A stretch of 64,000 nucleotides of DNA from Sulfitobacter sp. W027 (GTDB taxonomy: Bacteria; Pseudomonadota; Alphaproteobacteria; Rhodobacterales; Rhodobacteraceae), in the NCBI RefSeq assembly GCF_025143985.1, contig NZ_CP083564.1, positions 869,501 to 933,500 of the forward strand, written 5' to 3'. Numbering within the stretch: the first letter of the stretch is position 1; every line of letters begins with the position of its first letter. The position numbers and the translations under genes were made by a program. The notes beneath the pieces are model-generated. The model worked only from the letters and a program-made list of their open reading frames with translations. It did not search any database and had not been told where the DNA came from. This document shows, piece after piece, positions 40,464 to 43,579 of this stretch.

Positions 40464-41498
40464 TCAGGCGCTGCGCTGTTTTTCGGTCTGAGCGGCGATC
40501 GCGTCAAAGCCTGCCTGCGCTTCAAGGAAGTTGCGGGTCAGTGGCGCGGTCAGTTCGGATTGGTCTGAGAAATAAGCCCCAACCCGGCAGATATGCGCCG
40601 CAAATTCGGGGTGTACGCCCGCGTCATCATAGCGCCGAATGCGGTCCTTGCTCAGCCAGCCACGCTTCTTGGCCTCCTTGCTGATCAGCTTAAGCCGCTG
40701 CACCGCATGGAAGGTCAGGTAGACCGAAAGATAGTCGAGGTAGTCGGGCAGGGGAATGCCGCAGGTGGGATCAAAGGCCTCGATCACCACGTCGACCATG
40801 TCCTGCGGTGCCACGGGCCACGCCTCATCCCCGATCAGCCACGCGATGTCTTCGGCCCCATGACGCAGGCCGGCATATTCAAAGTCGAACCAGCGCAATT
40901 TCTCGTCGCGGCCAATTGCGGCATTGCCTGACCGGCAGTCCCATTTCACAAACTGCCGCGCCGGGGCGTTGATGCGCTCATAGGCCGCGGTGCGGTCGAA
41001 TTGGTCCGAGATCCCGCCACCGAGGTCTTTGAGGAAGTCCACCGCATCGACGAAGTTCAACACCCAGTCGCGGTTGTTGCCAAGGTGCGGCATGATGGCA
41101 TTCAACTCGGTCTGGCGCGCCGCGCCGTGGATGCGGAAGATGGCCGCAACGGCCTGTGCCGCCAGATCGAGTTGTGCCGCCGGTTCCACCTGCGCAACCT
41201 CGACGTTGAGGCGGCGTTTGCCCACATCCGATTGGAACATGATCTCCCCCACCACGCCCAAACATTCGGGTAGATCGCTGCAATGGCGACCGAGTTCAGT
41301 CAGCACATGCGCTTCCAAATGGGTCCGGCGAAAGTTGGGGCGCAGGGTGGCGATGATCGTGCGGTCGGTCAGATGCAGGCGAAAGCTCGACCGGTTTTCG
41401 CCCCCGGGGGCCGACACCCGCGCCACGTCCTGACCGAAATGCTTGCGCGCCGCTGCGACGATCTGCGCCTGAGAGCTTTGTTCCTTGGGTCGTGCCAT
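40464..41498 (-). CDS. Aminoglycoside phosphotransferase (APH)-fold protein
   Basis: A 344-residue kinase-like protein. The catalytic loop reads KWDCRSGNAA (Asp and Asn in the APH pattern) and the metal loop reads WFDFEYAGLRHGAEDIAWL. The N-lobe lacks a clear glycine-rich loop but holds a lysine-free SSFRLHLTDRTIIATLR region. Such proteins phosphorylate small molecules; the substrate is not clear. The gene is convergent with the SLC13 permease gene; their stops are one base apart. Confidence 0.78.
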   Translation of the reverse strand: MARPKEQSSQAQIVAAARKHFGQDVARVSAPGGENRSSFRLHLTDRTIIATLRPNFRRTHLEAHVLTELGRHCSDLPECLGVVGEIMFQSDVGKRRLNVEVAQVEPAAQLDLAAQAVAAIFRIHGAARQTELNAIMPHLGNNRDWVLNFVDAVDFLKDLGGGISDQFDRTAAYERINAPARQFVKWDCRSGNAAIGRDEKLRWFDFEYAGLRHGAEDIAWLIGDEAWPVAPQDMVDVVIEAFDPTCGIPLPDYLDYLSVYLTFHAVQRLKLISKEAKKRGWLSKDRIRRYDDAGVHPEFAAHICRVGAYFSDQSELTAPLTRNFLEAQAGFDAIAAQTEKQRSA

Positions 41499-41818
41499 GG
41501 GGCCTCCGCTGGTGTTTTCGTCTGTCTAGACTGGCTGGCTGACGAGGGTACGGCGGGTTTTGGGCAAAACAAAGGCAATTTCACCCCTATGTAGATGGAG
41601 TGATTCGTCAGCATTAGGAGGGATTGACCTATACTAAAGAACAATGGCCCATGAGGGGGGTGGAATGTTTCGATAATGCGTTAGAGCTGCGCCCAATTCA
41701 CCGAAAAGATGGAAAGAATTTGCCGAAAAGAAGCGGTGCCTGATAGATTAAAAGGTCTGTGGGGGGCGCGCTGCTGCGGAGCGGTCGCGACTGCAAATGT
41801 ATATGAGGGATTGGTGTC
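41499..41818. other. AT-richer gene-free interval before the repeat-protein gene
   Basis: About 320 bases with a clear fall in GC compared with the flanks. No supported gene; the ribosome site of the repeat-protein gene (GAGGG about 10 bases before the ATG) is at its right edge. TATACT at 41632-41637 is a possible -10 but has no good -35. The fall in GC may mark regulatory DNA or acquired sequence. Confidence 0.5.
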
Positions 41819-43579
41819 ATGGGTTATAGATTCTCGAAGGATTGGAACAGCACGGCTGATAGTTGGTCCACCGACGGTGCGGCGGGCAGTGGATGTGATG
41901 CCAGCGGAACGAAGTCCTATCACAATGGCGGGGTAGAAGGGTCTTCCTTCGCCAAGTGGTATGACGAAAACCTGGCTGGGAAGTTCGACGGGAGCGATGA
42001 CGTCAATGGCTCCGGCTCTGGCGGCACGAAGGGTTCCGGCTCTGGCGGCACGAAGGGCTCCGGCTCTGGCGGCACGAAGGGCTCCGGCTCTGGCGGCACG
42101 AAGGGTTCCGGCTCTGGCGGCACGAAGGGCTCCGGCTCTGGCGGCACGAAGGGTTCCGGTTCGGGCGGCACGAAGGGCTCCGGCTCTGGCGGCACAAAGG
42201 GTTCCGGTTCTGGCGGCACGAAGGGTTCCGGTTCTGGCGGCACCAAGGGTTCCGGCTCTGGTGGCACGAAGGGCTCCGGTTCGGGCGGTACGAAGGGCTC
42301 TGGTTCCGGCGGCACCAAGGGTTCCGGTTCTGGCGGCACGAAGGGGTCCGGCTCTGGTGGCACGAAGGGCTCCGGCTCGGGCGGCACGAAGGGTTCCGGT
42401 TCTGGCGGCACCAAAGGTTCCGGTTCTGGCGGCACGAAGGGTTCCGGCTCTGGCGGCACCAAAGGTTCCGGTTCTGGCGGCACGAAGGGTTCCGGCTCTG
42501 GCGGCACGAAGGGCTCCGGCTCGGGCGGCACCAAGGGCTCCGGCTCGGGTGGCACCAAAGGCTCCGGCTCTGGTGGCACGAAGGGTTCCGGTTCTGGCGG
42601 CACCAAAGGTTCCGGTTCTGGCGGCACGAAGGGTTCCGGCTCTGGCGGCACGAAGGGTTCCGGCTCTGGCGGCACGAAGGGTTCCGGCTCTGGCGGCACG
42701 AAGGGCTCCGGCTCGGGTGGCACCAAAGGCTCCGGCTCGGGTGGCACCAAAGGCTCCGGCTCTGGCGGCACGAAGGGTTCCGGCTCTGGCGGCACCAAGG
42801 GTTCCGGCTCTGGTGGCACGAAGGGCTCCGGCTCTGGCGGTACGAAGGGCTCCGGTTCTGGCGGCACGAAGGGGTCCGGCTCTGGTGGCACGAAAGGTTC
42901 CGGCTCTGGCGGCACGAAGGGCTCCGGTTCGGGTGGTACGCAAGGTGGTGATACGGGTGGCGATGACAAGTCTGTTCTAAATTTCCTGATGGGAGAGAAT
43001 GGAGAGATTACAATCGCCGTTACGGAGATGCCGAATGGGCAGTTGCACTTTAACCTTTCACCCACAGACCCTGAGGCTGAGTCTCACGCAGACATCAACG
43101 GGCTTTTCTTCAATGTGACTGATGGCAGTGCAATCGAAGAACTGAACTTCTTCCCTGACGTGAACGCTGAAGGCTATCACCTTACGGACGTGAAAGCAGT
43201 TGATGACGGTGTCGACGGTTTCGCTGATGGCCCTCAAGCAGGGGGAAGTTTCGATGTAGGTCTGCAATTCGGCACCACGGCTGACAGTTCAGATGGTGAG
43301 GTCACAAGTACAAACTTCACCCTGTGGACCTATCCCGGTTCGCTGTCGTTCGAGGATATCGATCTGAGCGGCATGCGCGTTGTCGTCGACTCGGATGAGA
43401 CTGGCGGCGAGGTGCTTGAGGTGACCGGTATGGTCGATCCAGACATGGATGACCCCGACACCGCCGATACCTCGGACAGCGCAACCGCCCTTATGGATGC
43501 GCTCAGCCTTACCTCCATGCCTTCGGAAGAGGACGAAGAGACCGACACCTATGAGGATGACGCCTTCGACATGGCTTAA
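41819..43579 (+). CDS. Large octapeptide-repeat protein (GSGSGGTK)39 with C-terminal beta-rich domain
   Basis: A 586-residue protein in three parts. Residues 1-63 are an unrepeated N-terminus without a classical signal peptide (MGYRFSKDWNSTADSWS). Residues 64-375 are exactly 39 tandem octapeptides GSGSGGTK, the last ending in Q. Residues 376-586 form an acidic domain with ADINGLFFNVTDG, EELNFFPDV, SFDVGLQFGT and a hydrophobic tail DDAFDMA. This C-terminal part resembles domains of secreted Rhodobacteraceae proteins exported by type I secretion, but I cannot name its family. Coding on the plus strand is supported by purely synonymous variation among repeats. A bidirectional terminator follows at 43601. 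Confidence 0.85.
   Translation: MGYRFSKDWNSTADSWSTDGAAGSGCDASGTKSYHNGGVEGSSFAKWYDENLAGKFDGSDDVNGSGSGGTKGSGSGGTKGSGSGGTKGSGSGGTKGSGSGGTKGSGSGGTKGSGSGGTKGSGSGGTKGSGSGGTKGSGSGGTKGSGSGGTKGSGSGGTKGSGSGGTKGSGSGGTKGSGSGGTKGSGSGGTKGSGSGGTKGSGSGGTKGSGSGGTKGSGSGGTKGSGSGGTKGSGSGGTKGSGSGGTKGSGSGGTKGSGSGGTKGSGSGGTKGSGSGGTKGSGSGGTKGSGSGGTKGSGSGGTKGSGSGGTKGSGSGGTKGSGSGGTKGSGSGGTKGSGSGGTKGSGSGGTKGSGSGGTKGSGSGGTKGSGSGGTQGGDTGGDDKSVLNFLMGENGEITIAVTEMPNGQLHFNLSPTDPEAESHADINGLFFNVTDGSAIEELNFFPDVNAEGYHLTDVKAVDDGVDGFADGPQAGGSFDVGLQFGTTADSSDGEVTSTNFTLWTYPGSLSFEDIDLSGMRVVVDSDETGGEVLEVTGMVDPDMDDPDTADTSDSATALMDALSLTSMPSEEDEETDTYEDDAFDMA
42008..42943 (+). repeat. Tandem repeat, 39 copies of 24 bp
   Basis: Thirty-nine contiguous units of 24 bases, consensus ggytccggytctggyggcacsaar, in the repeat-protein gene. 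Units differ at the third codon positions and, in one unit, swap two serine codons; only the last codon changes the amino acid (K to Q). Several other frames are open because a 24-bp repeat keeps any stop-free frame open throughout. Confidence 0.97.

Follow-up and report, generated by a model that had tools for sequence, protein, structure and literature searches.

A GSGSGGTK repeat protein of Sulfitobacter is genetically linked to a divergently encoded APH-type kinase

Introduction

On Bacillus subtilis spores, the Ser-rich repeats of CotB and CotG are polyphosphorylated by CotH, a kinase from the same gene cluster, and that kinase gene is clustered with genes for disordered Ser/Lys tandem-repeat proteins (PMC7821199). 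The locus presented in this study is alike in its layout, as Ser-rich tandem repeats are encoded beside a kinase, but it differs in that the kinase matches the APH family rather than CotH and the repeats are Gly-rich, and their phosphorylation is something we infer. The setting differs too, since the organism, unlike B. subtilis, presumably forms no spores. No kinase homologue that we scanned matches CotH, and the likeness is therefore one of operation and not of membership in the CotB/CotG–CotH module. The pairing of a kinase with a repeat substrate is thus of a known kind, but enzyme class, repeats and setting all differ from the documented case.

Three further groups invite comparison. The kinase resembles the APH family (PF01636), including the corramycin phosphotransferase 8agy, by a weak profile match and conserved catalytic-type residues, but its association, unlike that of the family, is with a repeat protein and not with resistance or metabolism. 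Some RTX-Hint proteins of Rhodobacteraceae (PF00353 and PF13403) carry Gly/Ser/Thr stretches and adjoin related kinases; the repeat protein, unlike these, has no Pfam match and therefore, by the Pfam test, neither RTX repeats (PF00353) nor a Hint domain. The likeness to type I secretion substrates is circumstantial and consists of an acidic tail, a PrtD–HlyD pair elsewhere in the genome and type I secretion genes beside a distant kinase relative. Our search of the literature found no description of the kinase/repeat-protein pair.

A constrained octapeptide in an array of labile length

The window, by which we mean the whole stretch of 64,000 nucleotides analyzed from Sulfitobacter sp. W027, contains the following features of interest:

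40464–41498, minus strand: APH-type phosphotransferase (kinase-like), 344 aa, proposed repeat modifier
41499–41818: intergenic region of 320 bp between the divergent kinase and repeat-protein genes
41819–43579, plus strand: repeat protein gene, 586 aa, no Pfam, NCBIfam or PADLOC match
41915–41986, plus strand: N-terminal motif SYHNGGVEGSSFAKWYDENLAGKF, common to the family's array proteins
42008–42943, plus strand: array of 39 GSGSGGTK units, the last being GSGSGGTQ (in-frame unit count and Tandem Repeats Finder)
42962–43438, plus strand: C-terminal domain, predicted beta-sandwich, without a clear fold match
43439–43576, plus strand: acidic tail, predicted disordered with one short helix; possibly a type I secretion signal

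The array consists of exactly 39 in-frame 24-nt units with 21 distinct DNA sequences, and Tandem Repeats Finder gave it the top score among its four rows in the window (1365; 38.2 copies of 24 nt). All eight third positions of the unit are variable, against one of the 16 first and second positions, which changes K to Q in unit 39. Averaged over pairs of units, pS was 0.370 and pN 0.0031, a ratio of 0.008. These values bear out the first-pass annotation, which had described octapeptides varying at synonymous sites and purifying selection on the peptide; the reading frames that we inspected in relatives also stay open through their arrays. The same annotation had taken the expansion to be old, but an old, static expansion was not supported: unit number ranges from 10 to 39 in close Sulfitobacter relatives, whose protein lengths are offset from one another in steps of 8 aa (354, 394 and 450 aa, for instance, against 586 aa here, the first three corresponding to 10, 15 and 22 units as estimated from length), and three other whole-genome relatives have 24, 29 and 32 units. 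Repeat numbers from short-read assemblies may be underestimates; in two genomes (G022, G047) the motif and the C-terminal domain lie on separate contigs, so arrays can break assemblies and unit counts may be low. The octapeptide is thus strongly constrained while the length of the array is labile.

Arrays of relatives do carry amino-acid changes, since pN/pS spans 0.000 to 0.128 in the 24 other arrays measured. Within them, Ser is replaced by Thr, Phe or Pro, Gly by Cys or Asp, and Lys by Gln, Arg, Asn, Gly and others. Among 715 units in 26 arrays, a hydroxyl residue (Ser/Thr/Tyr) occupies 703 of 715 sites at position 2 (695 Ser, 8 Thr), 713 at position 4 (694 Ser, 18 Thr, 1 Tyr) and all 715 at position 7 (710 Thr, 5 Ser), or 2131/2145 in total, whereas Lys is retained at position 8 in 578/715. 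Ala was found at none of the Ser/Thr positions of these 715 units. When each substitution was counted once per genome, in units required to have Gly at position 3 and at most two mismatches, Lys8 contributed 36 of 75 events.

These figures also bear on the proposal, made in the same annotation, that the array is a cationic flexible linker acting as a surface spacer or polyanion binder. The window's own array does carry a net charge of +10 per 100 residues, but over 45 arrays the charge runs from −4.3 to +13.5; this set was picked as Gly/Ser/Thr-rich segments, which partly builds in its Ser+Thr values but not its Ala content or charge. About half of the Lys residues are replaced by Gln in two arrays (L069, L076) and by Gly in two others (L086, L156), Asp offsets Lys in five (L017, L018, L020, L084, L085), and one array (L073) is nearly devoid of Lys. 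The constant features of the arrays are Gly and Ser/Thr, positive charge is not constant, and we regard the cationic linker as a very improbable explanation.

A Cys in place of Gly (GSGSCGTK and similar) was observed in a unit near the array end at six loci (L007, L008, L009, L011, L070, L072). In relatives, Cys also often stands before the motif; the window protein has a single Cys.

A repeat protein family with an optional C-terminal domain

Pfam, NCBIfam and PADLOC hold no family covering the repeat protein, and no Pfam family matched it at E up to 1. Its relatives in Rhodobacteraceae share a plan of a YHNGGVEG motif, one or more arrays, often a beta-sandwich, and an acidic tail. Beside the array, the motif in relatives reads SYHNGGVEGxxFxxWYDxxL, and in four of the loci read (L071, L074, L075, L140) it occurs twice, each copy followed by an array. 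All motif counts given here use a pattern with both Gly fixed; by this pattern, the motif was found among 289 genomes of the class only in the window's own genome.

The C-terminal domain, which the first-pass annotation had described as beta-rich, is predicted by AlphaFold2 to be a beta-sandwich (mean pLDDT 72.5; block means 83–91 for residues 31–150), and fold searches gave no clear match. The same prediction shows the tail as disordered apart from one short helix. The domain is optional, being missing by eye from L070, L077 and L081. It also occurs apart from the motif: 35 genus genomes encode it, 13 of them without the motif, and none of the eight of these 13 that were inspected has an array. 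The tails of the family contain 6–24 acidic residues in their last 55; an LM(T/N/S) element is present in 23 of 29 tails but not in that of the window protein. At one locus (L087:8374-10557), the same beta-sandwich stands at the head of a protein that has another domain repeated three times; motif, array and kinase are absent there.

The kinase gene accompanies the motif and array

The most informative feature of the locus is the kinase-like divergent neighbor, which lay outside the first-pass finding. Among 62 genus genomes, 24 have the motif and exactly those 24 have the kinase (at least 59% identity); two further genomes have kinase relatives at 33–34% identity. Among 394 family genomes, 25 have the motif and 49 a kinase match, including all 25 motif genomes. 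In all 48 distinct motif genomes, motif and kinase lie on one contig within about 1.6 kb, although the G124 kinase is fragmentary and contains a stop, and one stop interrupts the G380 match. None of the 13 genus genomes with the C-terminal domain but without the motif gave a kinase match, which indicates that the kinase tracks the motif and array and not the C-terminal domain. The genetic link between kinase and repeat protein is well supported, and we consider it very probable that the two are also linked in function.

At 35 fetched loci, 115–424 bp separate the kinase gene from the array gene. Thirty of these loci are divergent, with 291–424 bp between the genes, as expected for a shared control region, and linked genes are lost together; adjacent genes can also be co-inherited without acting on each other. 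Linkage through a common divergent regulatory region or co-inheritance alone would leave the repeat protein an unmodified flexible spacer and give the kinase some other task. The remaining five loci are co-directional and still adjacent, at 115–197 bp, and adjacency has thus outlived rearrangement; moreover, neutral Ser/Thr-to-Ala changes are absent from the 715 units. On this evidence, linkage without a shared function seems improbable.

Several arrangements around the pair deserve mention. In the intergenic region (41499–41818), short stretches around GTGATTCG and TGTTTC are alike in several genus members and are possibly control elements. At L079, motif and array reside in two separate genes (L079:8935-9528 and L079:10728-11567, both minus strand) with the kinase gene in line between them; its array part gives a match to the Collagen repeat of Pfam. 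A protein related to Acetyltransf_6 (PF13480), as judged by relation to the PF13480 member of L121, adjoins the kinase at L070, L071, L074, L076, L077, L086 and L121; it could be a second modifying enzyme.

A divergent APH-type enzyme

The window kinase matches APH weakly and falls under the Pfam cut-off (19.3 against 23.2 bits). Six of 16 kinase homologues matched PF01636 at E up to 1, with a best value of 5.9e-9, and one relative (L194) exceeded the cut-off with 44.1 bits. The Pfam scan of the 16 homologues listed six families, and the CotH profile matched none of these proteins. R53, E62, D187, N192, D205 and E207 are invariant in the 16, whose identities go down to 25%. We take these to be catalytic-type residues of the APH fold; D187, N192, D205 and E207 presumably include the catalytic Asp and Asn of the family, together with its metal-binding Asp.

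APH-type enzymes usually act on small molecules, and the only solved relative by profile is the corramycin phosphotransferase 8agy (E 1.6e-5). The kinase might accordingly serve the repeat protein indirectly, by phosphorylating a small molecule or sugar that later becomes joined to the protein or a co-exported polymer; the Acetyltransf_6-type gene beside the kinase in some loci, and sugar-transferase-like and Wzz-like proteins (named by eye) a few genes away in some, would fit such a role. However, the one gene common to the fetched array loci is the kinase, no other enzyme accompanies the pair throughout, and the constrained positions of the array are the hydroxyl-bearing ones. We rate an indirect role as unlikely.

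RTX-Hint proteins beside some of the more distant kinases

Of the 24 family-set kinases without the motif, ten lie beside Hint or Hint-like proteins (nine by Hint_2 matches, L123 by its C-terminus only), and G065 and G086 were left out. Three close kinases (L120–L122) have no motif partner, and for nine distant ones no partner was seen, as judged from neighbor lists for six and from the screen only for L152–L154. Two genus kinases, from the closely akin G012 and G032, also adjoin Hint proteins. All six Hint proteins that we scanned carry RTX repeats as well.

RTX-Hint proteins from 11 genomes contain a Gly/Ser/Thr-rich stretch in 8 of 11 cases when adjacent to the kinase and in 2 of 26 when not (Fisher p 1.6e-4), in a comparison where a crude Hint pattern is absent from 9 of the 26 controls and the longest ORF of L183–L185 may not be the Hint frame. 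The 71 Hint rows of these genomes comprised the 11 kinase-adjacent proteins, the 26 controls fetched and 34 that were dropped (frames below 420 aa), with weaker or unlisted Hint rows left out. Of the two controls that have the stretch, L174 is within a few kb of the G283 kinase and L175 is weak; the stretch is missing from 3 of the 11 kinase-adjacent proteins. In a tree of 67 kinase rows, the 36 motif/array-partnered kinases and L120–L122 form one clade (100/99), and all 12 Hint-linked kinases fall outside it. The tree has long branches and was rooted at the midpoint; the root being arbitrary, the order of events is one we infer. That distant kinases adjoin a different class of protein with similar Gly/Ser/Thr stretches also argues against mere linkage at the array loci. 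In G283, several RTX-Hint genes stand in a row beside one kinase gene (G283:C16:143249-156566; L129, L166, L174).

Among 289 class genomes, seven besides the window's own have kinase relatives. One of these, in another family, comes directly after genes for type I secretion, PrtD and HlyD (720 and 400 bits, both above the cut-off). A second faces an RTX frame that runs for at least 1914 aa, a third adjoins a 594-aa GSGK-rich protein, and the remaining four had no such neighbor among the genes seen.

Proposed mechanism

Both partner types share Gly-Ser/Thr-rich stretches, and type I secretion is the usual export route of RTX proteins. The simplest explanation is that the kinase modifies these stretches. 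The repeat gene would then encode an exported, largely disordered repeat protein and its neighbor a dedicated modifying enzyme. The APH-type kinase would recognize the repeat protein, perhaps through the YHNGGVEG motif beside the array, and, while it is in the cytosol, phosphorylate the Ser/Thr residues of its Gly-Ser/Thr repeats, after which the protein would exit through a type I secretion system. Outside the cell it might form a long phosphorylated, partly Lys-bearing chain that is headed by the beta-sandwich and serves as adhesive, matrix or surface brush.

The concentration of constraint on hydroxyl-bearing positions speaks for this scheme, as do the tight gene linkage, the invariant catalytic-type residues of the kinase, the Gly/Ser/Thr stretches of kinase-adjacent RTX-Hint proteins, the class-level kinase relative that follows PrtD and HlyD, and the PrtD–HlyD pair of the window's genome. 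Direct phosphorylation of the repeats by the kinase is a serious possibility, though short of probable. A docking function of the motif, exit by type I secretion and a role outside the cell are proposed parts of the scheme, with export the most tentative. The small-molecule norm of APH enzymes, the partnerless kinases (four of the seven class-level relatives among them), the broken kinase of G124, the stop in the G380 match, the three Hint proteins without a stretch, the lack of a type I secretion gene beside the array gene in the window and the tail without LM(T/N/S) count against the scheme. By analogy with CotH acting on CotB and CotG, the complete sequence of phosphorylation followed by type I export may apply, and we advance it tentatively as the best explanation. 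If true, exported repeat proteins would be subject to large-scale phosphorylation in bacteria, by an enzyme family usually read as antibiotic-type phosphotransferases. The scheme would also assign a role to a family of marine bacterial proteins that has no name yet, account for a constrained octapeptide alongside an unconstrained copy number, and provide phosphorylated protein polymers from just two genes.

In a broader reading, which we think somewhat unlikely, Alphaproteobacteria would have a whole family of APH-fold enzymes that serve as dedicated protein kinases and act on the Gly-Ser/Thr repeats of type I secretion substrates ahead of export. An extreme branch would then be the GSGSGGTK proteins, extracellular phosphoproteins of hypervariable length that could parallel the phosphoserine/lysine adhesives of marine organisms.
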